From assembly GCA_964036045.1 (NCBI GenBank), contig OZ038380.1, positions 169,296,531 to 169,360,530 of the forward strand: DNA of 64,000 bases, given 5' to 3'. The number at the start of each line of letters is the position of its first letter. Within the stretch, counting starts at the first letter, position 1. A program made the position numbers and the translations under genes. Positions 5,341 through 60,508 of the stretch are shown piece after piece. The stretch is from Eutreptiella sp. 'Long Island Sound 2002'. Taxonomy: Eukaryota; Euglenozoa; Euglenophyceae; Eutreptiales; Eutreptiaceae. The notes under the pieces are model-generated. The model was not told the origin of the DNA. It saw only the letters and a program-made list of their open reading frames with translations, and made no database searches.

Positions 5341-17602
<12,262 letters not shown>

Positions 17603-22976: not shown

Positions 22977-23378
22977 ATGTGCCGGTTCACAGTGTACAAG
23001 GGCCGGCCCATGATCCTGGCGGATCTTGTCACCCGCCCCTCGCGGTCCATCATCCTCCAGTCCTACAACTGCAAAGAGCGCCTCCCGGGCGTCGGGTCCA
23101 ACTTCAACGCCGACGGCTTTGGGGTCGGGTGGTACACGAAGGCCTCCCCCGGCGACGCCTGCCAGAAGCGGAAGCCCTGCGTCTTCAAGAGCGACCGCCC
23201 GGCATGGTCCAACGAGAACCTGCGCAACATCACCGAGACCATCTGCTCGCACCTGATCTTCGCGCACGTGCGCGCGGCCACGCCCAGCAGCTGCTCCGTG
23301 TCGGAGGCCAACTGCCACCCGTTCCAGTACGGCAACATGCTGTGGATGATGAACGGGCACATCGGCGGGTTTCTGAAG
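22977..23378 (+). CDS. Gene 2 exon 1: amidotransferase N-terminus with Cys2 nucleophile
   Basis: ATG at 22977 gives MCRFTVYKGRP. It includes NADGFGVGWY, FAHVRAAT and MNGHIGGFLK. Ends in phase 0 at donor GTGTCC. The frame stays open upstream to an ATG at 22704, but that start would bury the catalytic Cys. Confidence 0.95.
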
Positions 23379-23498
23379 GTGTCCTCGCACCAGGCCCCCC
23401 CTTGGCCTTGCCTTCTCGCTCCTTCAGTTGCATAGGCTGGGTCTGTGGCTGTGCAGCTGTTGCTGTTGCTTTTGCTGCTGCTGCTGCTGTTGTAGCCA

Positions 23499-23534
<36 letters not shown>

Positions 23535-24790
23535 TAGCCCTTGCTGCTGCTGCTGCTGTTGTAGCCCTTGCTGCTGCTGCTGCTGCTGCTGTTGTAGCCA
23601 CGGGGGGGGGGGCGGGCCCGGTCCTTGTATGCGACCCCCCCCCAGCCCCCCCCCCCCCGGGTTTTGAGAGATAGTGGGCTGGGGGCATGGCGCCAACGGC
23701 GCCCCCCTTTTTTAGTGTATGCTTCCTTTTCATTCGATCATCAATCCTTTTGAGCGCCAGATTTCGCAAGACGAGGCGCTATACAAATGTCGTTTGTTGC
23801 GAGGTGCTTTCGGCGGAGGTGAGCAAGACGGGCCGCTATACAAATGTCGTTCGTTGCTAGCTGAAGATCCTGCATTCGGAGCAAAACCCCGGACCCAGTG
23901 TAGCGCCAATTTCCCCCTTGCCTCCCTTGCCCTTGCCCCAGTCAAAGCCTCCTGCCCGCCCGCTCCCAAGTGAGTCCGAGGCAACAACCTCTGGGGCTGA
24001 GCGATCTCGTCCACTCAAAAGCGTCGGAAAGCGCAACAAGAAGAGGCGGGACGAAGCCCAACGGGAGCTTCAGTCGAAGCGCGCCCGCGTAGACTCCTCC
24101 TCCTCCTCCTCAGAGGGGGAGCTTTTCAAGGACCTCTAAGCAGAAGTCCATCCATTTTTTCTTTTAACCCCCAACTCTAACCAAGCCTCGGGAATTTTCT
24201 CACAACTAACCGGGGGGCGGGGGGGGGACAAGGGCGGAGGGGGAAGGGGGAAGGGGGGAGGGGGGAGGGGGGCAACACGGCGACCCTTAAGACTTTCTTC
24301 TCGGCAAAGACGCGAAATCGCTATTATCGCATACATACCTCCGTACCCCCAAACCCCCAGACACCCCCCCCCCCAGGAGGTATGCATGTGGTAGTAGTGG
24401 GTCACGCGCAAGCCCCCCCACCTTGGGAAACCCCCCCCCGCGGCCGAAATCCCCCCCCTACACCCCCCAGCCGACCCCCCCTAGAACTACCCCCTGCCCC
24501 CCCCCCCCCCCCCCCCCCCCCCGAGTTTCGACAGATAGTTGGGGAGTGGGTCGCATCAGGACCGGTTGTAGTCACCCCCCCGTGGTTGTAGCCATTGCTG
24601 CTGCTGCTGCTGCTGCTGCTGTGGCCATTGCTGCTACTGCTGCTGCTGCTGCTGTTGTAGCCATTGCTGATGCTGCTGCTGCTGCTGCTGTAGCCATTGC
24701 TGCTGCTGCTGCTGTTGTAGCCATTGCTGCTGCTGCTGCTGCTGTTGCTGCTGTGGCCATTGCTGCTGCTGCTGCTGCTGCTGTAGCCAT

Positions 24791-24824
<34 letters not shown>

Positions 24825-27800
24825 GCTTCTCCGGTTTCCTTTCTGTTCGCTCCCTGGCCCACCTGTGTGCCCATGGAGCTCGCACTTCCTTGCTCCCTTC
24901 TCCTTTCAATCCGTACATCTCCCCACTCTTTCACCCACTCAACCCACCCTCTCTGGTACTCGCAGACGGTTCTTGAACCACCACAACTCCCTTTTCCGCT
25001 CGCTCTCTCGCTCTCGCATTTCTCTCGCCGTCCCTCCCGGTGCTCCCACTTGCTCCCTCCATTTGACCCTCCAAGCATCCCTGCCTGCCATGTTTGCTCA
25101 CTTATCCACACACCCACTCACCCACTTACTCACACCCGCACACTCACACACACACACTCACACTCACACACATGCCTAGAGGCGGGCGGTGGCAGCCGTG
25201 CGTCAAGGGCATCAATTGCCAAATTGAGTAGGCCCTGGAGGCCGCCTCGCTGCCGCGAGCACCACCAGCTGTGAAAGCCCCAATACACACACAACACACG
25301 GGGCAACATGGCGATGACGCGCCCGTTGAACTAATACCGCGGAGCTGGCCCGGCGGAAGCCACGGCGCCACCACCCCACTTCCAGGGCACGGGGGGCTCG
25401 CCGGGACCGGACCCTTTACGCCGACCCCCCCCCCCCCAACCCCTGAAAGTGGTCTGAGAGTGGGAAGGAGTCGGCGTATGGCCCGATGCTACGCACCCCC
25501 CCCCCCCCCCGTGTTCCAGGGGGGTCCTGGGGCAGCAAGCCAGGGTCTGGCCTAAAGTGCATATTGCGCTGGTCGAGGGGCAACACAGGGACGCACCCCT
25601 GGCCTGCACCGTGGGCCTCACCGATCGGGGGCGACCCGACCCGGGGACGCCAGTGTGGCCATACAGGCTCAACCGGGAGACCTGGTAAAATTGGTGAAAC
25701 CCCCGAAACACACACACACACACATGGTTTGGTCGCATCATTGTTGAACCTCGCAGTTTGAGCATGATTTGAAAGAATTGGGCGTCACACACACACACAC
25801 ACACAGCCCCGCCCTGGTGCCAGGCTAAATATGCCGGTTGCACTACAGCCACACATGAGTACACACACGCACACACACTGACTCACTCACTGACTCACTC
25901 ACTCACTCACTCACTCACTCTACTGACCTCTCCCCCCTTCCTCCCTCGTTTCCTTCCTCCCTCCCTCCCTCTGTCACTTACCCACTTGCACCGTGATTCA
26001 CTTCTCCCTCCCTCCCTCCCTCCCTCCCTCCCTCCCTCCCTCCCTCCCTCCCTCCCTCCCTCCCTCCCTCCCTCTGTCACTTACCCACTTGCACCGTGAT
26101 TGACTTCTCCCTCCCGCTTCTGTTCCCTTTCTGCAAAGGTCCGGCGTCGCATGACCGAGTCCCTGAACGACGAACTCTTCCAGTTTGTGAAGGGGACGAC
26201 CGATGCAGAGTTGGCGTTCGCGGTGTTCTTGTCCAAGCTTCCGGTGAGGCACCGGGAGCACCGGTCCTACTCGTGCACCGACCTCGTCGTCGCCATGCAG
26301 AAGACCATATCGCAGATCGTCCAGTGGTGCGACGAGGCCGGCGTTGAGGAAGCCTCGTTGCTGAACTTCGCGGTATCCGATGGAGACCACTTCGTGGCGA
26401 CGCGCTTCTGCCACAAGACCGCGCAGGCGTCCTCACTGTACTTCGCCAGCGGCACCACCTTTGAGTGCCGCGACGGGGAGTACAAGATGGAGACGTCGCA
26501 CGTGCGCGAGACGTCCATCATCGTGTCCTCCGAGCCCCTGACGGACAACGACTACGACTGGGTGGAGGTGCCCCATTGCTCCTTGTGTCCCTCGATCTGT
26601 TTGTATGCGCCGCTTCCTTAACCTGCATGACTGGTCGGACCCGACCCGTGGGCTGACTGGGGGTTCTGCAGGCCTGGAGGGATCATTTACGGTCCGGGCA
26701 TCTTTTCTGGGCCCGTTTTCCACCCACCACCTATTTTCCCCACACCGGGACCCTGAGACGGTCGGGGTTATGGAGCCTTTCACCCCCCACCTTGGGGGCC
26801 CTGAGATGGCGGGGGTTCTGGGGTCACTTCTAGTTGGGGGTATGGACTCACAATCTGCAATTTTCAGTGGCCACTTCTGATTCTGTTCCCGTGTTGAGAC
26901 GGCAGAGGGTTGAGTGGCCCCCTCTTCCCTGTACTGAGTATTGTTGGAATGTTCCCGGCCTCTTGGGAACTTGAGTCCCAGTTTCAGGTCCAGTTCCAGT
27001 TCTCAAGTGCAGCCCAAACCTCAACCTGAAAAGGGAAGGATCAACAAGACAAAAGTAGCGCACCGACCGTGCGCTGGCGAAGCATCCCCTGTGACCGCCC
27101 GCACCCCTGCCCCACCAGGCTCATGCACCCTCAGCCCCGCAACCCCTGCCATTCCGCACCCCCTCAGCCTCACCCCCCCCCCCCCATCCCCCCCACACAC
27201 AATGCCATACCCCCCTCAGCCCCACCACACCTCCTCAGCCCCACACACAGTCCCACACACCCTCATCCTCACAGGCCCCCCAGTGCCATACCCCAGAGGG
27301 CGCGCACTGGGTGCACCCTCTGGGGGGTGGGGCACTGGAGGACTGTAGAGCTGAGAAGGTTGGGGACAGGGGGGGGGGGGGCGGGCTGTGAGTCTGAGGG
27401 GTAGGGGACTCGGGGGTGAGAGGTAACGTCTTGCGGCTTTTCTCCCAATGTTGCCACGCACTTCATCTTCATCTTCTTGCTACAACACAAGGGTGCGGTT
27501 TCACTCGCATGGAAACGATATGGTGCCAAATGGGGGCAATGGGGTGGTGGGAGGTGGACGTCTTGGAGGGTCCAGTAGCCCCTTGACTTAGTGTCTCTAC
27601 GATAGGGTCCCAACCCCACCACCTGATATCTGCATTTTTAGCGCATTTTGCCCATAGACAAAGTCGTGGAGCTCCTAAGCGCCCATCCGATGGTCCATGT
27701 TTCGGCCAATTTCGACGCGCCCAGACCGAGCTACGGCCATTTTGGACGCCCGGCCGGCCACGGCCGGGCCTAAAATTTCCGGACCGAAAACGACGTTTTC

Positions 27801-30800
27801 GGCTCGAAATCGAAAAATTCCGAAATTTGCAGACCTTTGAGCAGAAGTAAAGAGTGCCAGTGCTCTCGCAGTTGGTGTCGCCCGGGGGATACGCAGGCCC
27901 ACGGCTCCGCACCGGTCTGGATCAGGTGCCCCCCAACACGATGATCGTGCACACCAGCGACTCCACGGTGCTGCTGCTGCCCTGCATCGGCGACGTCTGC
28001 GAGATGGCCCCGGTCCTGGCGGCGGGGATGGCGGAGGAGGGCCGGCTCACGACGCACGTCGCGCGGCTCGGGGCCACGAACACGCAGAAGACGTACATGC
28101 CCCGCGGGCACTCCTTCGAGGACCTCCCCCACATGGAGTCGGCCCGCAATATGATGGGGTACAACGGGGAGCACTGCAGGTGTGCCGGACCGTGTGCCGC
28201 GGTGATCCTCACAAGAGCAGGTCGTCTTCTCTGGGGGTCTGCTTGATTGCACGATCGCTCAGTACCAGTTTTTAGCAGCGACTCTCTAATGTGAGACTGG
28301 CCGGATGAAGGGATCATCTCCGACTGAATCCGGAGTTCCGATCCCCTGGCACTTTGTGCTCGTCGGTAGGACAAGACACTCATGATGTGCGCCCGCACCT
28401 CCACTTCAACGGAACACGGAACACGCATTGTGGGATACTTTTTGGGATACTTTTGCCACGCAGACACCCCTCGCCTGGGAGGGGTGTCTGCGTGGCTACA
28501 GCGTGACTCCCAGTGGCAGTGGCGCTGCTGTTGCAATGGATACCCGCCGTGCTGTTGATGTTGTTTCTACACCATTTCGGGCTGCATTCCCATGCCCCAT
28601 CCCATCCTGCGTCTGCCAGAGGGTGCGGGGGCATTATGGGCTAGAAGGGTTGCAATCATTCGTTCTGTGCAGATGTGCACACCCAGTTGATGCTGAGGGA
28701 TAGGGACAGGGATAGGGATAGGGATGGCGACAAGGATAGGCACCTTTTAAGGATTGGTGCATATGTGCCTCGGTGATCCTCATAAGAGCAGGTCATCTTC
28801 TCTGGGGGTCTGCTTGATTGCACGATCGCTCAGTACCAGTTTAGCAGCGACTCCATAATGTGAGACTGGCAGGATAAAGTGATCATCTCCGACTGAATCT
28901 GGAGTTCCGATCCCCTGGCACTGTGTGCATTATGTCCCCATCAAGGCCATATCTGGGTGGCGTCCGTGTTTGCAAGATCTCTGCCACCTGAGTGGAAACC
29001 TAAATATTTTTTTCCCCACCTTCCTCGACCAATTTCCCTCCATTTTGCCCTGGTTTCCCCTGGTTTCCCCATTTCCTCCAATTTCCCCCTATTTCCCCCC
29101 CATTTTTCTCTTCAGAGCGGGAAGTTGAGTGGGTCACTGAGGTGCCACCCTGAGCGGGTAATCAGAGGCCCTGGGTTTGTACACATTTGTATTGGTCACC
29201 ATTGCTCCCGCGAGTTGCCACGTGTACCCAAACCTTTCGATGCAACAGCTTTGTCCATCTGTTGCAACACTTGTTTGTTCCACGGTCCGATGTATCAAGC
29301 ACTATCCGAGCAGAGCCAAAGCCCCCTGCAACTGCGGTAAACAGGTAAGTATGAATGTCTTCGGGGGGCGGGGGGTTCACAGGGCTTCAAAATCAGGAAA
29401 CTCGGGAAACCATTGAAGCAGAAATTTACCTCAATTATTGGGGCTGACAGGCCAAATCTGAACACCACGGTGCCAAACAACCAACACATTCATCACATGC
29501 GGTGTTGTGGGTGTGCAATGGATTGGGCTGTGACATTTGCGTTGCGGTATGTGCCCCTGTCCCCCGATGCTCCTCCATTTTGTTGCGAGCAACGAAGTTC
29601 CCAGGGTTGATGCTCCGGACTTCTGTCACAAAACTGCTGGGCTCTTTGGTGTACACTTTTCCCTGTCGCCGGATGGCTGGTTCATTGGCTGGGGGCACTG
29701 CAACAAGACCCAGGAAGAATGTGGGGACGTTATACAAACGCCGGACTGACAGTGAGCGATCTATGGCCCTGCACTCTGCGTTTGAGGAGGGGTCCGATGC
29801 GGGTGCTGTCAGCATGTTGATGACCTCGTTCCCAGGACATGGGAACGGGAGCGAAGGGAGTGTGCTGACCCAAGCGCCGCAGAAACCGGTTCACAATTGA
29901 TCACAAAAAAGGAACATACCCCCCCCCCCCCTGTGTGACATTCCGTCTGGTTGTTGCTCCTTTACGGGGCCCTGGACAGTCAACCGTTCTTCCCTTCGCA
30001 TGTTGCGTTGGGTTGCCTGCTTCTGTCGGCCGCTGCGGCTGGTGCTCTTGCTGGTGTTGTTTCTGCGTTCGCGGAGCCCAGTCGTTGGTGTGTTGCCCCC
30101 CCTTGCAATAGCTACGCCCTTGTCCAAGCTACAGCAGGTGTCGGGACCGTATGAATTTGGTACCTAATTTGATCCGGTACAAATGTAGTGCAGCCACATA
30201 AGAGATGGGTTTGGTGGCGAGTTTGCCAGCTACACAGAGTCATGGACACATTTGTTGTGAGTGTTTTCCCACTTGAACCCACAGAGCTCTGATTTTGGGG
30301 ATATCTGTGCATTATATTCCCCTTTCTTGCACCAGATCAGCGTGCAATGTTCTCTTTTTGAACCCGGGCGTCAATGGCCTTGTCCAGGGTACAGCAGGCG
30401 TAGGGACCGTATTAATTTGGGACTTTTGCGTAGCTATGACAAGGGGGGGGGGGGGGCTACATTCAGCACCCGCCCCTTTCGCTTGTATCACCGCAGGTAT
30501 TCCATGAACGACGCCGAGCCCCTCACCAGCACCCGCTCATTCAATGGCCAATCCATCCGCAACCACTTCCTGCGCCACCCCAAGTGCGACCTGGGGCAGC
30601 AGCGCGGGGGGCGCCCCAGCACCCCGGACCACTCGTCCCAGGAGGTCCAGAACTTCGCGCCCCTGCAGGTGCTCACAGGGCACACCAAGGGCGTCCTGAC
30701 CGTGGCGGTGGACAACTGCAACAACACGCTGTTCACGGGGTCCCTGGACGGCACCATCCGCGTCTGGGGCCTCGTCACATGTCAGCCCATGGGCGTGCTG

Positions 30801-31143
30801 CGGGCCCGCACAGCCGTGCTGTGCCTGGAGGTGCAGCGGCCCCCTCTCCAATCTCCTCCTTCCGGGGCGGGATCGCAATTTTCCCGCAATTTCCCGCAAT
30901 TGGATTCGACGCCCCCTGACCACAACCCCCCCCCCTGTTCATTCACTCACACTCCCTAGCTCATTTTCTTCCCCCTGCCCTGTGCCTATATATGGGCGTT
31001 TTCACGCGGAGCAGAGAACATAATGATGGGCCCCAAAACTTCAAAAACTTTGCAGCCCCTATTCCTCCAACGTATTCGCACGAGGGCGGCTACAGCAGAG
31101 CTCGAGGCTTTGCAACCGTCCCCCGTCACCACAGCACAGCCGC

Positions 31144-31194
<51 letters not shown>

Positions 31195-52100: not shown

Positions 52101-55100
52101 AATTATTCCCCCGTTGGTAAAGTGGTTTGGCATCTGAGCTCCGGGGCGGCCCAAGAGTTGTTGCCGTTTTGCTTATCAAAACGTCCTGTTCGCTTGCCCT
52201 CTGCCGCTCGAGGGGGTGAGGAGAGGGTGGCATGAGGCAGGGGATGCCATCCTTTGCAGCAGCTGCTTTGGGGCACGGGGGAGTGGGGGACCCGGATGCC
52301 CCCTGCCCCCCCCCTTCCTTTCCAGACCCCCCACCCTCCGCCCGTGGGAAGCAGCAGTTAAAGACCGAGCGCTTCGCGGGCCCTGTGGGCAGCACGCCTG
52401 AGCCGCACAGCCCACGTCTGTCTGTGACCCAGCAGCCCTGCGGACCGGCCCCACAGTGGGAGCCTTCGCTGGGCACGGGGATGTGCTCCACAGTTCCATG
52501 TCCGCCGCCTCTCTGTTGCTGGTTCAAGTTGGCCATTGGCATACTGGGGCAGGGGGGGGGAGGGGTCTGAGGATGGGGAAGTGGATTCGTCTGGTTTTCC
52601 CCCTGACGTTGGGAAAAGAGCAGGTATCCCCCCCCCCCTGCTTGTCATAGCAGAAGGTTCAAGGGCGAGAGGGCAATAGGCGCCGCCACAGGCTAACAGA
52701 GCCAACGCCCAAGGCCTTGTGCCAACCCCCCCCCCAAAAAGGGGGCGTGTCGGCTCTTGTGGGGGGCTGGGGGGGGGGGGGGTTGCTGAGCTTGGCAGAT
52801 CACCAGCGGTGTTCGTGGGCTGAGGCACATCGTGACGCATGGGGGCGGCTGCTACTTTGCGCAGACCTGTTTTGCTTTGCATTTTTGTCATGGCCACAAA
52901 AGAATGTGAACGTGGGTGATCATCCGGGAGCACCTTGACGCAGTTCGACGGGGGCCCCCAGAAGCATCACATTTTGTGGCAAGCCAATAGGTCTGCCACA
53001 GGCTACCAGAGCCAACCACCAAGGCCTTGTGCCAAACCCCCCCCCGGGGATATGGGTGGGTGGGTGAGCCAAAATCCCAGGGAAGCCAATTTATTCCCCC
53101 CCTTCCCCAGGGGGCGCACCGTGCGCTGTGCAACAAGTCAACTATTTTCCACCGCCGGTAGCCATGGGTCCCAGGGTCCTGAACTCTGCACCCCCAGTGC
53201 GGTTTTGAATGGATCATGCACGCTTCTGTAGGGGGGTGGTTTGCAGGGGTGTTCCCGGGATAAACAGCGTAATGAAGGGCGCCGTGCCCACGCTGTGCGA
53301 AAACGTCCCCCCAGTATCACGAAGCAATGGCCTGCGCTAGGAGGTATTAGAAAGTCGGGGGGAGGAGTAATATTCCCCATTGGGAATATTACGTTCCCGC
53401 GATGGTCATTTTGGTCTGGGCGGGGGGTCCAGGGGGGGTAACCCCCCCCCCCTCCTCCTGCGGTGTACCGCCATTCCAATCCTTCCTTGTCCCGTTACCT
53501 TACCGGGCCCCCCCTCACGCTGGTGTCAGAGCCTGGGGCTGACCCGGCCAAGGTTTCTCCCGGGGCTCGCCCCGGCGGAGTCTGGCGAGCCATAGCCAGG
53601 GGGCAGGGACTTGCTTTAATTTTCATTCCGGCAGGGGGGGGGACCCCTCCCCCTCTGACCCCCTCCCCCCCTCCCCTGGACCCCCTCCCCCCCCTCCCCC
53701 CTCAGCTCAAGTGCACCCGAAAACCTGGGTTTTGGGAACATTTTTTAGTCGTGGGAAAAAAACTTTCGGCGCCTTCGGCGCATGCCATACACTGTGTACA
53801 TATTGCTCCATGTGTGCTCCATCTCCCTTGTTATCCAGACTACCATGCCCCAACGCTCGTTGTTGGTGTATTTCAGCTCCCCGGTCCCACCGTTGCCACG
53901 CGCAAAACGCGAAGACGTAATTGACACGCTGCTCTATTTTAGGTTTAAAGATAGGATCACAGGTCATAAAAGCCGAGGTACCCTCTGATCCGGAGCCAGT
54001 GGATGATGAGGCGCTGCCTGATAATTTGTCCAATGTCTCCCATTCAGGCAGTGACTCAGGTTCGTCATCATCATCAGGTTCCAGTTCCAGTTCCACTACC
54101 GATGGGGGCTCCAGTTCAGGTGAGTCTAATTCTGATTGACAAGAAAGATCACTGTCATTTGGCATGAGATGGTGAATGTCCCGCTTTGTTGTAGTTGTTT
54201 TGTATTGGTGAGATGTGGGAACCCTGAATTGACATTCAATGATGAATTTTCTTTGTTTACGGCCGACAACATGGCATTTCCATGTGCTGAGGTGTTCATT
54301 CTCCAATAATTTTTTCTGTTCACTGTGGATTGGGTATGTTCCGGCAGGGGGGGGGGGCCTCCCCCCTGGACCCCCTCCCCCCCTCCCCTGGACCCCCTCC
54401 CCCCCCCCCCCCCCCCCGCTCAAGCAAGTCCCTGGCCAGGGGGTCCCATAAGGACGCTCACACTTTTTTTGTTCATTACAGGAGCCACTCTCCTTTTTGG
54501 CGGTTGGAGGGTAACTGACGGCGGTTGGAGGGTAACCAACAGCGGTTGAAGAGTTTTCATTAGGGAAGCCACTTTGGTTTTGGTCCAGGCATGTTGACGA
54601 TATGAACGCTCGTGTTGTTACGCCATGATGGTAGCTCAGTTGGTTATTGTGCCGGCCCTCAGGCACAGGCGGCGCTGGTTCAGATTCCAGTATGCCACTT
54701 ATTGGCAGTATCGGACGCTCACCTTTTTTTTTTTGTTAGGGGACCCCCTGGGCATAGCCCCGGGCCGCCCTGACCGCCCCCTACCGCCCCTCCGCAGGTC
54801 TCGATCCGGACGGTGGCGCACCAGAACGGGCACGAGCTGGTGCTGGCCATCCGGGACTACCTCTTCGAGCAGTTCGAGGCGCGGGGGACGGGCAACCAGC
54901 TGTCCGTGTCCGTGGGGAAGATCGTGAACCCGTGGCGCGGGAACCCCCGGGACAAGTTCTACCAGGCGGCGGAGCGCGCCATCCACGACGTGTGGGCCCA
55001 GGACCCCCTGTACATCCAGGAGGGCGGCACCTTCAACAACTGCCTGGCCCAGATCCTCCCCGGCGTCCCCACCCTCCACCTGCCCCTCGGCCAGGCCTCA

Positions 55101-58100
55101 GACCGCGCGCACCTGTCCAACGAGGTGTGCCTCGTTCACAAGTGGGGGGTGCGTCCCGTGGGGGGCAGGGCCGTTCTGAAGACCCGCAATTTTTTTTTTT
55201 TGGTTGAGGACAGCCCCGAAGGACACCACCAACCGCCAACCGCCGCCAACCGCCAACCGCCAACCGCCAACCGCCGCCAACCGCCAACCGCCAACCGTTG
55301 TTCAACACTGCTTCTGGGGCCTTGTGTCCTGCCCATGCCTTGACCATGAAGCAGAGAGCGACCCCGTGGGCGTTCGTTTCTGTCGGCGTTGCGAACCCTT
55401 TGCTGTTTTTTTCCCCCTCAAGGACAGCCCTGGTGGGGGGTACACTAAAGCCTGCACTGAGGACTGCGCCGTGGCTCACACCCGGGGGCTACACTGGGGC
55501 CTGCACAGAGGCCTGACTAGGGTGTGGGAGCTCGAAGAAAGGCTTGCAAGGGGCGGCAGGGGGTTGTCTGAGACACAAGGGAACCATGAGGTGCGAGCAC
55601 TGCAGCAACCACCAAATGCGGCGCACGCCGAGCGAGCCATCAGCAAACACCCCCCCCCCTCCCTCTACAAGGTGCCCACCTACTCCACAAGGGCGGGGGC
55701 TGCGCCCCACGCGCCGGGAGGTGCCCGCCACGGGGGTGGCAACAGGGCTGTGAACAGCCAACCGCGCACGGGACAGTCCACGTCGTACGGAGATGTGAAA
55801 TCCTCGTACAGAGGGGGCGGGCGGGTGGGACAGGAGGGGGAACGCGACATGGGCACCCAGGAGCGCCAGCAGACAGGTGGAGGAGCAACACAGACACACA
55901 GAACGCGGGAGCCACACCAAGAGGGACAAGGGCGGGCACAGCAGACAAGGAGGAGGGGCACAGCAAGGCAGGAGAGGCAACCAGAACAGCGGGAAATGGG
56001 AACCAGAATGGAGCGGATGGCAGAGCGTGCGCATGGGAGGCAGCGACAATAAAGGGGATGGCCTGGCCAGCCAACCCCGTCGCTACCGGGTGCCAAGGCA
56101 ACCCCTACTCAACCGGCATCAGGTGGGAGGTGTCTCCCGCAGCCCAGATGGGCTGTTTGCGCAACAGGAGCGGGAGCCCATCAGGGGCAGACCAACCGTG
56201 AGGGGAAAAAGGACATATGGTGGACGGCCCGGACAGCGCGTGGAGGAACAGGGCACCTGGGCCTCACACAAACACAGCAAGGCAGGCTATGGACGGCCTG
56301 TGGACACAGGTGTGTGCACAGCAAAAACAGTCAAACGACCCCGGCAACAACCAGCACATCCTCAATACGCCAATCATTGGGCGCCGCTGACGCGCAAACG
56401 GCACACCATGCCACATTCAGCACAGCCCCAACACACCAGCCACTGGGCTCCGCGAACGCGGAAACGACACCAGCAAGAGCACCGGCCGCAGCGGCCAACA
56501 GAACGCAGCGACCCGACGCAACATGCGAAGGGAAGAACGGGTGACTGTCCAGGGCCCGCGTAAAGGAGCAACAACCCGACGGAATGTCACACAGGGGGGG
56601 GTGGGGGGCTGAAGGAGAGGGAGGGCAGGGAAGTATTAGAATGGCCGTACACCGTAGGAGGAGGGCGGGCACCTCCCCCCCCTGGACCCCCCCCCCTCTA
56701 GACCAAAGGGACCATCGCGGGAAATAACGAAATTTATAATCGGGAAAATCTGGTCGGGCCATTTTTGGTGCGGAAAATTTTGGATCCCAGACCCCCCCTC
56801 CCCCCCTTCTAATATTCCCCTGGGGGGGAGGGGGGTCTGGTGAGACGGATGAGAATCCTGAATGAAACGCCCGACGTTCTGTGGTGTAGATTTTTTTTTA
56901 TGTGTCGTGTGAATGAGCCCTCAGGAACACTGCACGCCGGGTACTTCTCTTGTCACAGCGGAAGGCGCCCATGGCAACGTCCCCGAAGAGCGTTTTCGTC
57001 TGATTTCTGTTGCTCTGCAGCCCTGTGCCTGTGTGGCAAGGGGTATCCCACCGCCGGGGGGGGGTCCGGGAAAGGGGCTCAGATGACAGAGTCTTTGTAA
57101 AAGGGCAGCCCAAGGGCCAGTGATGGCTCGGAAAACAGGCCCCGGAGCGGCCGAGAAGGACATGTTTTGAGAAAAGCCCCCCCCCCCTCCCCACGAAGTA
57201 CGGGGGGGGGATTTCGTGGCACTTTAATTTCGCGTGGGAAATTTCGCGGTTTAAATCGACCGCGAAATTGCCCACGCGAAATTCAGTGTTCACTTTGTGT
57301 AACACATACATACGCACGCGTACATGTGGACAGATGTATATGGATTTGCGCATGAAGATGGTACGTACATGCGTATGTGCAACATGTACACACAAGTGTC
57401 TATGATCGAGAGGAAGGCTTTTCTGTTTCCCCCAAGGTGACGGTGATTGTAGCCGACCCATACCCCCCCCCCCTCCCCCCTTGGGGAGATTTCCTCACGG
57501 AGCTACATATGCAGCATTGGATATCGGCCGGACAAGCTCGCTGGGTACCACGCCCGATATGATCTACACAAAGGCTTACAACAGCTCCTCGCCAAGAGTG
57601 ATGGGTCCGAGATCATTCGGTGGCACTTATTCCGCGCCACCCCGCCCCGCCCTACCCCGCCGGGTCCGTGGTAAAACTGAGTAAAAAAAAAATTTTTTAA
57701 AAAAAAAAATTTTTTTACTCAGTTTCAAACTGAGTAAAAAAAATTTTTTTACTCAGTAAGTGGGGTTTCTACTCAGTTGCGAAACTGAGTAGAAAAAAAA
57801 AAAATTTTTTTTACTCAGTAAAAAACTGAGTAGAAAAAAGCCCTTTTTTCTGATTTTGCCCCCCGCTCTGAAGCGGTGGGGATCCCCGATACGGCAGGGG
57901 TGAGGTAGCCACTTTGCCCACTTGTGGGCCACTTCTGATTCTGCCCCCCGCTCTGAAGCGGTGGGGATCCCCGATACGGCAGGGGTGAGGTAGCCACTTT
58001 GCCCACTTGTGGGCCACTTCTGATTCTGCCCCCCGCTCTGAAGCGGTGGGGATCCCCGATACGGCAGGGGTGAGGTAGCCACTTTGCCCACTTGTGGGCC

Positions 58101-60508
58101 ACTTCTGATTCTGCCCCCCGCTCTGAAGCGGTGGGGATCCCCGATACGGCAGGGGTGAGGTAGCCACTTTGCCCACTTGTGGGCCACTTCTGATTCTGCC
58201 CCGCGCTCTGAAGCGGTGGGGATCCCCGATACGGCAGGGGCGAGGTAGCCAATGGTGGCATGGGCAGTCCGTGATTCGTTGTGGAATGCGTCATGCGCCA
58301 GTCCACAACGCCGACAGGCGTTGGTTGAATCATGGGCGCGTAGCACTTTGGAACGCGCGTCCATTGATATGTCTTTTGCACCACCGTTGATTGTGGCGCA
58401 GATATATAATTCGCGTAATTTCCATTGGGTGCTCCGCTTGTTGCTGATTGCCCCTACCCGTGAATACCTTTGCCTTAAGTTTGACCCCCTCCTTGACAAG
58501 CCACACATTGTTGGGGCAAACAAGGAGGAGTTGGCTGTTGTGGATGAGCTTGCGGAGCGAGAAGGCATCCAACCACAACCGCGGAGGAAGTGGGCAACGT
58601 TTTTGGATGCTTTCGGTTCCCTTGCATTTGCAATTGCACCCCTGTATTCCACCTTCATCAGGCAGGATGATTTTGTCAGTTGCCATCCGGCATGTCTGTT
58701 GATGTTGCATTGTGCCTTGTCTAGACGTGTTGTCAAAGGCGATTTGCAAGTGCCACAGGATAGATTGTGGTTATTGCGTGAGATGGCACAAGCTACTTTG
58801 TACTACAGTGGTTCCAAGTTGGCCCCCTCACCCCGGACCCGGTCAATGCATTGGGAGGTGTCTCGGTTGTACCCCACGCCCAAATCTGCAGACCCCCCTG
58901 ACACATGCTTTTTTTGCGATGGCACACCCGCCATAGCGTGTCAGGAATGTAAGGTTCTTCATTGTACCTTCCATACCACTGTCTTGTGTCAGTCCGAGAT
59001 TTGTGTAGGATTGCGCCAATTCCGGGCGGCCCCCGTTGCTGCTGCTGCTGCTGCTGTTGTTGCTTTTGCTGCAGTTACTGCTGCCAATGCCACGCATGCC
59101 ACTCCTGGCAATGCCAATGCCACTGATGACACCCGTCCCGGTGTGTGGATCTGTCGGAAGTGGTATGCGTTGCCTCCTCAATACCCCCAAAATGCTGATG
59201 GTCAATTGGAAAATGACCAAGCATTTTGCAGACAGCTGCATCTGGAAAAGAAAGAAGATCTTTTTGAGAGATGCAAGCTGAATCCTACCCCGAGAGGCAA
59301 GCCTCACAAGAGAGAGACTAAGGCCGACTTGATCTTCAAGCGTGTCTTTTGTAACTACTTGTAAGTAGTTGGCCCCACCCTCCCTCCCTCCTCTGTGCAT
59401 GCATGCATACGATACTCAACCCTCTTTGGTGAAGTGGTTGTGTGATCCCTCCCTCCTCTGTGCATGCATGCAGACGGTACTCAACCCTCCTTGGTGAAGC
59501 GGTTGTGTGATATATATATATATATGATGGTTTGGCCCGGGTGGGGCGCCACTAACACAAGTGGCCGGGAATCGACTCGGGGGCCTTGTGCCCTTAAACA
59601 AAAGTACCACCTACCATCAAAGTGTGCAGTTTTTTGTGCATTTTTTTTCAAAAAAAAATTGTCTTTTTACTGAGTAAAAAAAAAAAAATTTTAAAAAAAA
59701 ATTTTTAAAAAATTTTTTTTACTCAGTTTTACCTCAAATCTACTCAGTTTTACCACATTTTACTCAGTTTTACCTCGTCTGGTACTCAGTTTTACCAAAT
59801 ACCCTACCCCGCCTCTCCCCGCCAGGCCCCGCCCCGCCCTGCCACGCCACACCTCCCCGCCCCGCATAGCCGCAGACAGGGTTGGCGTACGCTCGCCCCA
59901 GACAACACACACACTCCCCCAGGCCTTTGCTTAAGGGGAGGGGGGGGGTACCCAAGGTTCACACAACCCCTTGCCTCATGCCTTTGCTTGCCCCCCCACC
60001 CACCGGCAACCGCCCCTCCAACCGCCAGTAACTGCCCCCAACCGCTTTGTGAGTCACCTGCAACCGCCATTGCAACTGCCCCTGGGACCCCCTGAACCCC
60101 CCCCCCCTAATTAAGCAAAGGCCTGCACTCCCCCGAGAACTGACCCCGACAAGCAGGTTATTCAACGAACACGACATCGATCACAAGTCGCCCTGCACGG
60201 GAACCCACCCACTCTTCATGGAACCCCCCCCCCCCCCCCACGAACGCCCGGTGCTGAGTGCCTGGCGCTCTGGCCCCCCGCCCGCGCCCCGGCCCCCGCC
60301 CACGCCGCACCGTCTTGCCGCACAGCGCATCCGGTGGGAGAATCTCGTGAAGGGCAAGCACGTGATGAAGGCCTTCCTGCAGCATCTGGGGCAGGAGTCC
60401 CCGTCGGAGGCGCACAACGCAGGCGGCGAGTCGATGCAGAGCAATGGCGGGGGCAGCCCTCTCGGCGACTCGGGCAGTCGGATCGGGTCCAAGTCCGCTG
60501 AGTGGTGA
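22977..60508 (+). CDS. Gene 2: fused Dug3-Dug2-type glutathione degradation protein, 13 exons
   Basis: Exons are 22977-23378, 26139-26567, 27926-28179, 30497-30830, 33437-33718, 38280-38529, 40387-40661, 42290-42607, 45700-46014, 47618-47818, 50995-51405, 54798-55124 and 60326-60508. All phases match, giving 1326 residues. Residues 1-361 are a class II glutamine amidotransferase of the Dug3 type: nucleophile C2 right after Met, R99, N126-G127 and D156. Residues 380-815 carry WD40 blades (GHTKGVLTVAVDN; GHTGAVLDLAV; TIKVWD). Residues 825-1300 are M20-like: H901 and D903 in GHYDVVD, D935 in RGTTDNKG, H1046, E1232, H1262. Yeast Dug2 has WD40 plus M20, and Dug3 is the amidotransferase; together they cleave the gamma-glutamyl bond of glutathione in the cytosol. 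Q981 replaces the usual general-base Glu and N1013 a ligand Asp. The start was chosen because the Cys must follow Met. Fusion is strongly supported but needs a transcript. Confidence 0.93.
23446..23600. repeat. CTG repeat array 1 with GTTGTAGCC interruptions
   Basis: Blocks of CTG are separated by TTGTAGCCATTG and TTGTAGCCCTTG. In intron 1 of gene 2. A second, longer array of the same design is at 24580-24835. Confidence 0.93.
23930..24139 (+). pseudogene. Possible coding fragment, basic then Ser-rich C-terminus
   Basis: A + frame after CTTGCCCCAG reads SESEATTSGAERSRP, then SVGKRNKKRRDEAQRELQSK and a poly-Ser, acidic tail ending SEGELFKDL and TAA. It looks like the end of a nuclear protein but lies inside intron 1 of gene 2 and has no matching upstream exon. 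It may be a captured gene fragment, a transposon end, or chance. Confidence 0.3.
24580..24835. repeat. CTG repeat array 2 with GTTGTAGCC interruptions
   Basis: About 255 bp of CTG blocks separated by GTTGTAGCCATTG or TGTGGCCATTG. Sequence between arrays 1 and 2 is rich in C and G runs. Confidence 0.93.
24836..25700. other. Intron 1 sequence, nothing assigned
   Basis: Pyrimidine-rich and CA-rich intron DNA with C and G runs. No exon or known element was seen. Confidence 0.5.
25700..25925. repeat. CA-rich element followed by ACTC repeats
   Basis: CA tracts flank GTTGAACCTCGCAGTTTGAG, a motif repeated at 31208-31230 beside another CA tract. Ends in ACTC/ACTG units. Confidence 0.7.
25970..26112. 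repeat. (CCCT)n tract between 37-bp direct repeats
   Basis: CTGTCACTTACCCACTTGCA occurs before and after a 70-bp (CTCC)n tract. The second copy ends 27 bp before the exon 2 acceptor, so the polypyrimidine tract of intron 1 is part of this duplicated block. Confidence 0.9.
26139..26567 (+). CDS. Gene 2 exon 2: amidotransferase middle
   Basis: Acceptor CTTTCTGCAAAG, donor GTGCCC, 143 codons. FVKGTTDAELAFAVFLSKL and EASLLNFAVSDGDHFVATRF are Dug3-like; D156 is the conserved acidic residue. Confidence 0.95.
26735..26915. repeat. Degenerate GAGAYGGYGGGGGTT repeats, related to the 85-bp satellite
   Basis: CCTGAGACGGTCGGGGTT, CCTGAGATGGCGGGGGTT and GGCCACTTCTGATTCTG recall the satellite at 57849. 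Confidence 0.5.
27280..27338. repeat. Imperfect inverted repeat, 21/23-bp arms
   Basis: CCAGTGCC-CCCCAGAGGG faces CCCTCTGGGG-GGCACTGG across a 15-nt loop, in intron 2 of gene 2. Confidence 0.75.
27926..28179 (+). CDS. Gene 2 exon 3: amidotransferase C-terminus
   Basis: Acceptor TCTGGATCAG, phase 0 start (VPPNTMIVHTSDS). Ends in phase 2 within AG|G (Arg) at donor GTGTGC. No stop codon precedes the donor, which is the key evidence that the frame continues into the WD40 exons. Read-through without splicing would add about 25 residues and stop at 28243-28245. Confidence 0.9.
28190..28345. repeat. Direct repeat of about 150 bp, copy 1
   Basis: Starts about 12 bp after exon 3. GGGGGTCTGCTTGATTGCAC and CATCTCCGACTGAATC are repeated at 28770-28930. 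Two copies about 580 bp apart lie in the same intron. Confidence 0.9.
28455..28496. repeat. Perfect 18-bp hairpin
   Basis: Arms GCCACGCAGACACCCCTC and GAGGGGTGTCTGCGTGGC with a 6-nt loop, located between the two 150-bp direct repeats in intron 3. Confidence 0.92.
28770..28930. repeat. Direct repeat of about 150 bp, copy 2
   Basis: About 95 percent like 28190-28345 by eye. Confidence 0.9.
28931..29937. other. Intron 3 sequence, nothing assigned
   Basis: Non-repetitive intron DNA, less GC-rich than average. Overlapping open frames at 29435-29900 on both strands look complex but have no recognised motif. Confidence 0.45.
29938..30100 (-). repeat. Interspersed repeat family B, partial inverted copy
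   Basis: Reverse complement of the 3' part of family B. It begins with a C run and CTGTGTGACATTCCG. Confidence 0.85.
30112..30440. repeat. Family C related block with two end motifs
   Basis: GCCCTTGTCCAAGCTACAGC at 30116 and GCCTTGTCCAGGGTACAGC at 30378 each lead into a GGGACCGTATnAATTTGG motif. 63700-63780 carries the same block. Confidence 0.75.
30497..30830 (+). CDS. Gene 2 exon 4: linker and first WD40 blade
   Basis: Acceptor ATCACCGCAG. The phase-2 codon is completed as AGG, then YSMNDAEPLTSTRS. LTGHTKGVLTVAVDN and FTGSLDGTIRVWG are a typical WD40 repeat. Donor GTGCAG, phase 0. Confidence 0.92.
31146..31200. repeat. (CA)n microsatellite
   Basis: CA dinucleotides with a few GA interruptions, in intron 4 of gene 2. 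Confidence 0.95.
31386..33060. other. Intron 4 sequence, nothing assigned
   Basis: Includes a purine-rich stretch at 32310-32430 and short CA tracts. No exon or known element was seen. Confidence 0.5.
33062..33155. repeat. Short degenerate tandem repeat of about 10-12 bp
   Basis: GATGGGACC and related units (GATTGGACC, AATTGCACC) repeat about eight times. Confidence 0.8.
33437..33718 (+). CDS. Gene 2 exon 5: WD40
   Basis: Acceptor CGATCTTCAG, donor GTGTGA, 94 codons. Contains WLFAICAGGCMQIWNYADG and YLYCGGLDTRLHYV. Confidence 0.92.
33820..36840. repeat. 3-kb tandem island of an AT-richer element with CCCTAA edges
   Basis: Left edge has TAACCCTAACCCTAACC then ACCGAGCTGGTGG at 33854. The internal junction near 35640-35683 has CCACCAGCTCGGTGACCCTAA then ACCGAGCTGGTGG. 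The right edge at 36813 has CCACCAGCTCGGTGACCCTAA-CCCTAACC. Two units of about 1.8 and 1.2 kb are therefore arranged head to tail with inverted 13-bp ends. A block with GCGAATCCCGTTCCCGGCC appears at about 34625, 35403 and 36545. Fills much of intron 5. Confidence 0.85.
37515..37650 (-). repeat. Interspersed repeat family D, copy 3 (inverted)
   Basis: Reads ACAGTAACCGCCCCCAACCG then CCAACCGCCTGCCTAACCGC, the reverse complement of copies 1 and 2. Confidence 0.85.
37655..37735 (+). repeat. Interspersed repeat family E, copy 2
   Basis: GATCCGGTCCGTCTGACCGA and ACGAGGCACACGTAAGTC match 17180-17260. Confidence 0.75.
38280..38529 (+). CDS. Gene 2 exon 6: WD40
   Basis: Acceptor CGCATTCCCAG. GWCSVPAHCGFVYAMAIMSV through SNTLLLTAA, phase 1 end. 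Without this exon the phases of exons 5 and 7 do not fit. It includes a likely loop insertion, RLAQQRQHCDNAASTS. Confidence 0.9.
38617..38835 (+). repeat. Interspersed repeat family F, copy 1
   Basis: GGGGGCGCACCGTGCGCTG, GAATGGATCATGCACGCTTC and TTCCCGGGATAAACAGCGTA recur in the same order at 53100-53310, roughly 90 percent identical by eye. Confidence 0.9.
38918..39055 (+). repeat. Interspersed repeat family G, copy 1
   Basis: ACATGTCACTGAAGAGCTTT, GACTTTTGCTTTGCAC and CACACGCATCCGTATCCCA recur at 60705-60840; a diverged copy is at 56945-57052. Confidence 0.85.
39056..40386. other. Remainder of intron 6
   Basis: G runs and a short palindrome around GCGGTTAACCGTCAACCGCC at 39413. No exon or known element was seen. 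Confidence 0.5.
40387..40661 (+). CDS. Gene 2 exon 7: WD40
   Basis: Acceptor CCTTCATCAG completes Gly, then DGLIKGWTLNEDG. Contains YRGHTGAVLDLAVG and SASTDRTIKVWDIVG. Donor GTCCCT, phase 0. Confidence 0.93.
41043..41341 (+). pseudogene. hAT-type transposase C-terminal fragment
   Basis: An open + frame of about 100 codons, AT-richer than the host gene, ends in TAA at 41339-41341. TLCIPHTSCDVERSFSMWKN followed by a run of basic and helical residues (RSEKQYNMQHALHKAYV) fits the hAT dimerisation domain (PF05699), whose signature is P-x-TS-x-x-ERxFS. The DDE core upstream is absent, so this is a truncated copy in intron 7 of gene 2, same strand as the host. Confidence 0.7.
41460..41578. repeat. 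Tandem CGTTTTGCAC/CCATTTTGCAC units
   Basis: About eleven 10- to 11-bp units, in intron 7. Confidence 0.9.
41884..42190. repeat. Interspersed repeat family A, copy 2
   Basis: TTTTGTTAAGGACCGCCCTT, CCAACCGC units, then TTCAACACTGTTTCT and GACCATGAAGCAGAGAGC. Ends about 100 bp before exon 8. Confidence 0.85.
42290..42607 (+). CDS. Gene 2 exon 8: last WD40 blade and start of M20 region
   Basis: Acceptor GCTCCCGCAG. EGLIRLWDLGSIEHV closes the propeller. SLLSAFISFKSISQ is the start typical of Dug2-type M20 domains. Donor GTGTCC, phase 0. Confidence 0.93.
42632..44212. mobile_element. Non-autonomous terminal-inverted-repeat element with a 40-bp internal array
   Basis: Starts GGGTCTGTGGTAAAACTTA. 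Its right end, reversed, reads GGCATTTGATAATACTTAGC, matching the ends of the element at 57662-59804. CCCCTCTC flanks both sides (42624-42631 and 44213-44220), a possible 8-bp target duplication, though the region is CT-rich. The left part shares CAAAAGTACC and ACCATCGAAGTGTG with that element. No ORF. Lies in intron 8. Confidence 0.7.
42765..44185. repeat. 40-bp minisatellite, about 35 units
   Basis: The unit is two 20-bp halves: AAGTTTTACCCTATCTTACT and AAGTTTTACCTCGTTCCTTC. It resembles the few AGTTTTACCTC subterminal copies in the element at 57662-59804, so it is probably an expansion of a transposon end. Confidence 0.97.
44213..45699. other. Remainder of intron 8
   Basis: No supported gene. 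Contains a tRNA-like B-box segment (44870-44935, minus), G and C runs, and an AT-rich patch at 45300-45400. Confidence 0.5.
44870..44935 (-). other. tRNA-like fragment, perfect T-arm only
   Basis: The minus strand reads CCGGG-TTCGAAT-CCCGG, a perfect 5-bp T stem with a 7-nt loop, preceded by GAGTTGGGCAC. Acceptor strands do not pair, so this is a tRNA-derived repeat rather than a working tRNA. Confidence 0.4.
45700..46014 (+). CDS. Gene 2 exon 9: M20 catalytic core, first metal motifs
   Basis: Acceptor CTCTCTTCAG. YGHYDVVDV (H901 ligand, D903) and YGRGTTDNKGP (D935 bridging ligand) are standard M20 motifs. Donor GTATGC, phase 0. Confidence 0.95.
46062..46457. mobile_element. hAT-type MITE with exact 8-bp target duplication
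   Basis: Left end CAGACTTTCAGTTAATGCG and right end CGCATTAACTGAAACTCTG are inverted repeats with one mismatch in 19. GACCCCCC flanks both sides (46054-46061 and 46458-46465). The CAG start and 8-bp duplication are typical of the hAT superfamily. The 396-bp interior has no ORF of note and itself has mirrored GTGAATCCCACA motifs. Sits 47 bp after exon 9 in intron 9. Confidence 0.88.
46730..46797 (+). repeat. Interspersed repeat family H, copy 1
   Basis: GCGAGAGGCCAATAGGCGCC, then AGGCCTTGTGCCACA and a C run. Further copies at 49668-49742, 52648-52737 and 52978-53046. Confidence 0.82.
46855..47030. repeat. Interspersed repeat family I, copy 2
   Basis: ACCAGACATGCCACGAGC, ATCCAGAACTCAGTAAGAA and GGCTCAGTAGG match 19235-19435. 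Confidence 0.7.
47345..47575. repeat. AAAATTTTCC/GGAAAATTTT self-complementary region
   Basis: GGAAATTTT-type motifs on the left and TTTTCCAGAAAATTT-type motifs on the right can fold on each other many ways. AT-rich island ending about 40 bp before the exon 10 acceptor. Confidence 0.85.
47618..47818 (+). CDS. Gene 2 exon 10: M20 core with altered catalytic residues
   Basis: Acceptor GCCGCTGCAG. HEGAQETDSAGLKE aligns to the EGxEE-GS motif of M20 enzymes, with Q981 where the first of the two Glu is expected. CISNTYWLGEK has N1013 at the position of a ligand Asp in carnosinase-like enzymes. Donor GTTGTT. Confidence 0.92.
47853..48204 (+). repeat. Interspersed repeat family B, copy 2
   Basis: Starts 34 bp after exon 10 and ends in GGAATGTCACAC plus a G run. 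Confidence 0.88.
48205..50604. other. Intron 10, mostly unassigned
   Basis: C and G runs, repeated GGGGGCCATAGGAGGAGG units at 48595-48665, family H at 49668-49742, and a segment at 48990-49060 related to 22105-22150 (TTTGGAGGTGG then CCTGACGACC). No exon was seen. Confidence 0.5.
49668..49742 (+). repeat. Interspersed repeat family H, copy 2
   Basis: GGGCGAGAGGCCAATAGGCG, then AAGGCCTTGTGCTA and a C run. Confidence 0.8.
50607..50675. repeat. Family C mini-element, inverted relative to 20882-20949
   Basis: Ends CCCTTGTCCAAGCAAC and GTTGCTTGGACAAGG, followed by a G run. Upstream similarity extends to about 50455. Confidence 0.82.
50995..51405 (+). CDS. Gene 2 exon 11: M20 dimerisation (lid) region
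   Basis: Acceptor TGCGCGCAG. PCLVYGLRGLCQLTLEVSG and HDLHSGIDGG (H1046) match the inserted M20 subdomain. It ends LIPSK at donor GTGAGC, 137 codons. Confidence 0.94.
52648..52737 (+). repeat. Interspersed repeat family H, copy 3
   Basis: AGCAGAAGGTTCAAGGGCGA, then AAGGCCTTGTGCCAA and a C run. Confidence 0.82.
52978..53046 (+). repeat. Interspersed repeat family H, copy 4 (shortened)
   Basis: AGCCAATAGGTCTGCCACAG, then AAGGCCTTGTGCCAAA and a C run. Confidence 0.75.
53100..53310 (+). repeat. Interspersed repeat family F, copy 2
   Basis: Matches 38617-38835 over its whole length, including TTCCCGGGATAAACAGCGTA. Confidence 0.9.
53780..54330 (-). pseudogene. Possible transposon-derived coding segment
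   Basis: AT-richer than the flanks. A minus-strand frame runs through it with an acidic, Ser-rich part (DDDDEPESLPEWETLDKLSG) and a basic part (CHVVGRKQRKF). The + frame at 53921-54139 also reads acidic and Ser-rich. Strand and identity are uncertain. Confidence 0.3.
54626..54700 (+). other. tRNA-derived repeat (A- and B-box like)
   Basis: GTAGCTCAGTTGGTTA matches a tRNA A box and D loop. GGTTCAGATTCC resembles a B box with one extra base. TGTGCC and GGCACA form an anticodon-like stem. Acceptor strands pair poorly, so this is a SINE-like remnant and not a functional tRNA. Confidence 0.45.
54798..55124 (+). CDS. Gene 2 exon 12: M20 C-terminal catalytic part
   Basis: Acceptor CCCTCCGCAG. Contains YIQEGGTFNN (E1232) and DRAHLSNE (H1262, last metal ligand). 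Donor GTGTGC, phase 0. Confidence 0.94.
55188..55440. repeat. Interspersed repeat family A, copy 3
   Basis: T run, GAGGACAGCCC, CCAACCGC units, TTCAACACTGCTTCT and GACCATGAAGCAGAGAGC. About 60 bp after exon 12. Confidence 0.85.
56172..56598 (+). repeat. Interspersed repeat family B, copy 3
   Basis: Full-length match to 16545-16970, ending in GGAATGTCACACAG plus a G run. Confidence 0.9.
57226..57283. repeat. 25-bp inverted repeat with one mismatch
   Basis: Arms at 57226-57250 and 57259-57283 enclose an 8-nt loop. Built from AATTTCGCG and CGCGAAATT motifs. Confidence 0.92.
57849..58250. repeat. 85-bp satellite, about 5 units
   Basis: TCTGATT recurs at 57849, 57934, 58019, 58104 and 58189. 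The unit carries CTCTGAAGCGGTGGGGATCC and ACTTTGCCCACTTGTGGGCC. Degenerate copies at 13545-13670 and perhaps 26735-26915. Confidence 0.96.
58252..59364 (+). CDS. Transposon ORF, 370 codons, Cys-rich motif
   Basis: ATG at 58252, stop TAA at 59362-59364, with codon use more A/T-rich than gene 2. Lies entirely inside the inverted-repeat element. The middle part is helical and hydrophobic. Around residues 222-243, CFFCDGTPAIACQECKVLHC and further Cys and His could bind zinc. An Ala/Thr-rich low-complexity stretch (GCT repeats, 59035-59080) follows, then a basic C-terminus. The Cys cluster recalls those attached to some transposases, but I see no complete DDE core. I read it as a transposase fragment or accessory protein of the element, in the same direction as the host gene. 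Confidence 0.55.
   Translation: MVAWAVRDSLWNASCASPQRRQALVESWARSTLERASIDMSFAPPLIVAQIYNSRNFHWVLRLLLIAPTREYLCLKFDPLLDKPHIVGANKEELAVVDELAEREGIQPQPRRKWATFLDAFGSLAFAIAPLYSTFIRQDDFVSCHPACLLMLHCALSRRVVKGDLQVPQDRLWLLREMAQATLYYSGSKLAPSPRTRSMHWEVSRLYPTPKSADPPDTCFFCDGTPAIACQECKVLHCTFHTTVLCQSEICVGLRQFRAAPVAAAAAAVVAFAAVTAANATHATPGNANATDDTRPGVWICRKWYALPPQYPQNADGQLENDQAFCRQLHLEKKEDLFERCKLNPTPRGKPHKRETKADLIFKRVFCNYL
59383..59512. repeat. Direct duplication of about 65 bp, then (TA)n
   Basis: CCTCCTCTGTGCATGCATGC and GGTTGTGTGA occur twice in tandem. The second copy runs into TATATATATATA. Confidence 0.92.
60326..60508 (+). CDS. Gene 2 exon 13, terminal
   Basis: Acceptor TGCCGCACAG. RIRWENLVKGKHVMKAFLQH continues the NE-x-LR motif of the family. 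A Ser/Gly-rich tail then ends at TGA 60506-60508. Confidence 0.9.
   Translation, partial: RIRWENLVKGKHVMKAFLQHLGQESPSEAHNAGGESMQSNGGGSPLGDSGSRIGSKSAEW

Follow-up and report, generated by a model that had tools for sequence, protein, structure and literature searches.

A probable one-chain form of the glutathione degradosome: amidotransferase, WD40, and M20 domains in a single joined reading frame of a large, non-fungal-looking genome

The yeast proteins Dug2p and Dug3p make up one complex that cleaves the gamma-glutamyl bonds of glutathione and of gamma-Glu-Met and that can also transfer the gamma-glutamyl group (PMC7617739, PMC6508711); the DUG pathway is presented as fungus-specific (PMC9012958, PMC6508711). 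The locus described here, located on the + strand at positions 22977–60508 of a 64-kb window (the whole stretch of DNA that was analysed), raises the question of whether both partners are encoded by one gene, and what such a protein would do. The gene sits on a 190-Mb contig of a 2.28-Gb assembly of 2205 contigs. The reading that we hold with good confidence is that of one gene for a 147-kDa Dug3-type amidotransferase-WD40-M20 fusion, which most likely works as the yeast (Dug2p-Dug3p)2 complex does, but within one chain.

When the 13 exons are rejoined, they give 1326 residues followed by a stop codon with no internal stop, and GT-AG boundaries are found at all 12 introns, which range from 1.4 to 5.2 kb; the original prediction of thirteen exons joining without a phase error into 1326 codons was thus reproduced. 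Ten of the 12 introns are in phase 0, while introns 3 and 6 are in phases 2 and 1, respectively, and the mass calculated from the joined frame is 147 kDa. Three Pfam families are matched above their cut-offs in this one frame, namely GATase_4 at residues 41–288 (62 bits, cut-off 23), WD40 (70.5 bits, cut-off 27), and Peptidase_M20 at residues 898–1285 (74.7 bits, cut-off 24.6), in agreement with the domain order given beforehand. The amidotransferase occupies residues 1 to ~298 and is followed by a linker of ~115 residues, by a WD40 propeller at ~413–845, in which about seven blades were counted by eye, and by the M20 domain at ~846–1285.

The class II amidotransferase is encoded by exon 1 (22977–23378, residues 1–134), which holds the N-terminal half with Cys2, Arg99, and Met125-Asn126-Gly127, by exon 2 (26139–26567, residues 135–277), which holds Asp156, and by exon 3 (27926–28179, residues 278–361 plus two bases), in which the core ends at about residue 298 and the linker starts. 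Exon 4 (30497–30830), which opens with the third base of codon 362 and extends to residue 473, carries linker and the first WD40 blade; the propeller continues through exon 5 (33437–33718, residues 474–567), exon 6 (38280–38529, residues 568–650), and exon 7 (40387–40661, residues 651–742), and its last blades are in exon 8 (42290–42607, residues 743–848). The M20 domain extends over exon 9 (45700–46014, residues 849–953), exon 10 (47618–47818, residues 954–1020), exon 11 (50995–51405, residues 1021–1157), which includes the dimerization or lid domain, and exon 12 (54798–55124, residues 1158–1266), to end in exon 13 (60326–60508, residues 1267–1326 and the stop codon), which also encodes the tail. 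Upstream, no stop interrupts the frame back to 22683, and this part contains a hydrophobic, signal-peptide-like stretch from a Met at 22704; this extension was rejected and the Met at 22977, which is followed by Cys2, was taken as the start because the codons at 22683–22976 score as non-coding (−0.85 bits each), and this open frame is probably 5′ UTR. A longer exon 3 starting at 27872 is in frame, but it was set aside at −0.55 bits per codon.

The joined exons show an extreme codon bias, with a GC3 of 94.6%. In leave-one-exon-out scoring, 12 of the 13 exons have a positive codon score, the exception being exon 5 at −0.07 bits per codon, and in all 13 the two alternative frames of the same strand are negative. 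A scan of both strands of the window, with a codon model trained on all 13 exons, assigned 29–132 bits to the exons on the + strand, the weakest being exons 5 and 13 (29.3 and 36.6), while antisense shadows over several exons reached 71.7 bits and the best non-exon segments were two tracts of CAG-type repeats (35.9 and 40.2), followed by one at 30.7. Exons 5 and 13 are not clearly separated from the background by codon use, and the case for them is made by splice sites, frame, and homology. CAG/CTG-type tracts in intron 1, at 23453–23662 and 24573–24812, act as coding mimics on the minus strand, and short, isolated coding-like segments of the + strand precede the gene at 17483–17590 (28.6 bits) and 6038–6199 (29.4 bits). 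When the scan is extended to 20 kb beyond the window, seven segments other than the exons exceed 25 bits, five of them in the window (28.6–40.2), including the two CAG-type tracts of intron 1, and two in the added downstream sequence (34.6 and 36.1 bits); the 36.1-bit segment looks reverse-transcriptase-like by eye (locus L110, ~9302–9649).

The unity of the gene depends on intron 3 (28180–30496, 2317 bp, phase 2), which is the fusion junction. The donor at 28179 ranks best among the 24 GT sites of 27930–28400, and the codon score, +0.73 bits per codon ahead of it, is −1.45 behind it; since the coding signal collapses at this point, exon 3 ends by splicing. The 22 read-through codons past 28179 sum to −31.8 bits, a total lower than that of all 1051 overlapping in-exon windows of equal length (minimum −12.6, with the model trained on the same exons), and they lead to a stop at 28244–28246, one base downstream of the 28243–28245 first reported. 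A like drop is seen at the other 11 donors with the exception of that of exon 5, where a stop follows after one codon. Both the collapse at the donor and the read-through of exon 3, which is not coding-like, speak against the main alternative, in which the locus holds two tandem genes, a Dug3 whose end lies within intron 3 and a Dug2 starting from the Met at 30504, lying side by side because their products cooperate.

This alternative gains from the Met itself, which is in frame, two codons into exon 4 and seven bases past the acceptor (its position had been given as 30503), so close that the coding signal does not discriminate against a separate Dug2 start, from the mid-ranked acceptor at 30497, the 10th of 122 AG sites by an acceptor matrix derived from 11 sites, and from the existence of stand-alone amidotransferase relatives in all 80 of the bacterial loci kept and on contig C1772, both described below. 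It loses from the search for a last exon of its own: among 110 AG acceptors in the needed phase, tested from 28240 on and paired with donor 28179 alone, the best is 30497 (36.3 bits), those ranked second to fifth also enter exon 4 (29.9 down to 2.7 bits), and the sixth, which gives the best alternative terminal exon, opens 5 codons worth 2.5 bits, so that a last exon of very few codons stays conceivable. In the codon scan, no segment above 12 bits is present on either strand of intron 3, whose length is ordinary, the fifth of the 12 counted from the shortest. The surroundings point in the same direction, as no non-exon segment above 25 bits is found between 24.8 and 73.3 kb in a scan that detects only genes with like codon use, and in a region otherwise so empty it would be unusual for unrelated transcription units to lie 2.3 kb apart. 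Open frames elsewhere in the assembly have a GC3 of 0.63–0.83, so that genes whose codon use differs would go unseen in the scan; because the emptiness is seen only through like codon use, our confidence in the fusion was lowered slightly and that in tandem genes raised by as little, and we regard the latter as unlikely while still giving them some weight. One fused gene, which would be read as one transcript, appears to be the simplest reading of the locus and is well supported by the sequence; at this level the claim that both halves belong to a single gene held up in phase, donor rank, the codon boundary at 28179, the lack of a coding-like alternative last exon, and the ordinary length of intron 3.

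Intron 3 also contains a duplication of ~165 bp (28193–28359 and 28764–28928, 93% alike) that holds the read-through stop; its origin as a dispersed mobile element was set aside, since a genome search with the duplicated segment found two copies, both in intron 3, and no more. A second repeat lies just upstream of exon 4 (30118–30163 and 30378–30423). The poly-A motifs AATAAA, ATTAAA, and TGTAA are found neither in intron 3 nor in the first 1.2 kb past the stop, a result that is uninformative.

As regards the amidotransferase half, a scan of GTDB genomes gave at least 560 bacterial relatives, and the best 80, which were kept, have 31–47% identity over the amidotransferase domain. These stand-alone relatives (among known structures, also 3mdn) share the conserved core of the fusion and differ from it in that the chain ends after the amidotransferase domain: the frames of all 80 loci stop near fusion residue 298–320, with 253–316 residues in the 77 that have an MC start. 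Within flanks of up to 6 kb a side, none of these 80 loci has an M20 match, and a WD40 match, a weak one, is present at L077 alone. The 77 relatives with an MC start, the other three having been dropped, were aligned with the protein of contig C1772, for a total of 78 sequences; of the 48 columns conserved in at least 90% of them the fusion keeps 45 and departs at A45, A157, and M125. Cys2 (77/77) and Arg99, Asn126, Gly127, and Asp156 (78/78 each) are all kept, and these residues we take to be the class II amidotransferase core, that is an N-terminal MCR with Cys2 as the nucleophile, Arg, Asn-Gly, and Asp. Met125 (23349–23351) stands where a His precedes Asn-Gly in 78/78 aligned relatives, a change that, judging from the alignment, could weaken the amidotransferase; asparagine synthetases likewise are not known to have that His.

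The sole NCBIfam match of the protein is EgtC (TIGR03442), at residues 1–289 with 170.4 bits. EgtC (4zfj), the gamma-glutamyl amidohydrolase of ergothioneine biosynthesis, is likewise a class II amidotransferase starting with MCR, but the fusion lies below the equivalog cut-off of 218.65 and EgtC chains have ~235 residues. The label Dug3 is used for the domain and its core residues as compared with the bacterial relatives, the C1772 protein, and EgtC.

A genome search with the whole protein, in which 35 of 211 candidates were scored, matched the M20 part only at this locus; the amidotransferase part was matched at this locus and at one other place, the 15-kb contig C1772, and WD40-type matches were seen elsewhere; among the candidates scored, no second amidotransferase half was found on a large contig. 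In a genome search with Pfam GATase_4, contigs C10 and C1772 were matched and the fusion gene itself was missed, so exon-split paralogues can escape this kind of search. C1772 carries a stand-alone Dug3-like gene (L017, 1465–3330) with a long low-complexity insertion and a short intron recognized by eye; the GC content of the contig is 48% and the GC3 of the gene is 47%, and the contig is possibly a contaminant. On the 71-Mb contig C10 there is a different class II amidotransferase frame (L001, 1399–2259; GATase_4 218 bits).

In Dug2 a WD40 propeller at the N-terminus precedes an M20 domain, and the second half of the protein has the same order, with WD40 and then Peptidase_M20 above cut-off in one frame. 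The label Dug2 is based on this order and on the M20 alignments; no fungal Dug2 is named among the PDB matches listed (of 22 in one search, and 60 of 462 in another). The M20 half aligns over ~410 residues with CNDP2 (4ruh, 2zof), CNDP1 (3dlj), and yeast DUG1 (4g1p) (213–236 bits; 22 PDB matches), and the alignment spans the subdomain that we take to be the dimerization domain. In all four alignments inspected of these 22 matches, EGAQETDS in the fusion is opposite the EGMEE motifs and ISNTYW is opposite ISDN(Y/L)W; unlike the known enzymes, the fusion has Gln981 (47699–47701) and Asn1013 (47795–47797), both encoded by exon 10, in place of a Glu and an Asp of M20 dipeptidases, presumably the general base and a metal ligand, respectively. 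We assume that in CNDP2 numbering E166 is the general base and E167 and D195 are metal ligands, and the chain positions in the alignments agree. His901 and Asp935 (exon 9), Glu982, His1046 (exon 11), and Arg1161 and His1262 (exon 12) are retained. The combination of a general-base Glu with all the metal ligands, which defines an active M20 dipeptidase, is thus broken at Gln981 and Asn1013, and because of these replacements the M20 half is probably a peptidase-dead dimer module that has lost the activity and kept the dimer-forming domain. The M20 domain of the original prediction was found, while the two substituted catalytic or metal positions had gone unmentioned there, as had the His-to-Met change of the amidotransferase.

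The genome contains 11 M20 matches, and the five M20 open frames compared on large contigs (L102, L105, L107, L108, and L109) keep their EE motifs. Three of these, L107, L108, and L109, are long M20 dipeptidase frames that lie on contigs C19 and C9, and L109 is closest to PDB 3pfe. A search of viral contigs with the M20 half gave no relative.

A bifunctional degradosome, in which glutamate is taken off by the amidotransferase and the Cys-Gly set free is cleaved by the M20 half, so that the activity of Dug1 is included in the same chain, would account for the alignment with CNDP2 and yeast DUG1 along most of the length and for the retention of His901, Asp935, Glu982, His1046, and His1262; we consider it very improbable in view of Gln981 and Asn1013, of the EE motifs kept by the five compared M20 frames of the same genome, and of yeast Dug2p, which is said to have no peptidase activity. 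Still less probable is a decaying or non-enzymatic descendant whose domains serve as a scaffold with neither active site working, since Met125 beside the oxyanion-hole Asn-Gly and the M20 substitutions, which would suit it, are outweighed by 1326 open codons, by the GC3 noted above, by a Cys2, Arg99, Asn126, Gly127, and Asp156 that are all in place, and by the asparagine synthetases, which are not known to have the His either.

The fusion of a Dug3-type amidotransferase with a WD40-M20 chain fits the model of the yeast complex. In work attributed to Kaur et al. 2012, Dug2p reportedly has no peptidase activity, binds Dug3p via its WD40 domain, and dimerizes via its M20 domain; the fit is close because the fusion has the order amidotransferase-WD40-M20 and a probably peptidase-dead M20 domain. 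By this mechanism, glutathione or other gamma-glutamyl peptides would give up their gamma-glutamyl group to Cys2 at the N-terminus, and the group would be released as glutamate or passed on. The role of the WD40 part would be to keep the amidotransferase active, and the M20 part, instead of cutting peptides, would pair two chains, so that a dimer of one 147-kDa chain would replace the heterotetramer. On balance we favor, with less assurance than for the fusion itself, the view that in a non-fungal lineage the degradosome is one homodimeric gamma-glutamyl hydrolase with a propeller, a peptidase-dead M20 dimer module, and a His-to-Met change by the oxyanion hole.

In comparison to yeast (Dug2p-Dug3p)2, a complex of two different proteins (PMC7617739), the fusion has the same three domains and the same expected 1:1 ratio, but two polypeptides in yeast correspond here to one joined frame with a linker of ~115 residues. 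Moreover, a genome of 2.28 Gb and introns of 1.4–5.2 kb make a fungus unlikely as the host; the term "fungal" in the original prediction suits the reference system and not this genome, which is non-fungal in look.

Within the literature covered on Dug proteins or such fusions, with few subscription papers in it, no Dug2-Dug3 fusion is named. In Euglena gracilis, also a non-fungal eukaryote, the orthologue of the "GSH degradosome" is given as one transcript contig, GDJR01091960.1 (PMC6351624). This contig might be the same fusion or a single Dug protein, and its existence lowers our claim of novelty.

If present in a very large eukaryotic genome of non-fungal look, a fused degradosome would widen the range of the DUG pathway, and it would give evidence, independent of yeast genetics, that the WD40-M20 protein is a partner of the amidotransferase. 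A single chain would lock the Dug3 and Dug2 partners at one to one; if this is true, the M20 half would be architecture and the propeller an obligate partner of the amidotransferase. An enzyme of one chain would also offer a direct test bed for the dimer model and for the role of a peptidase-dead M20 domain.
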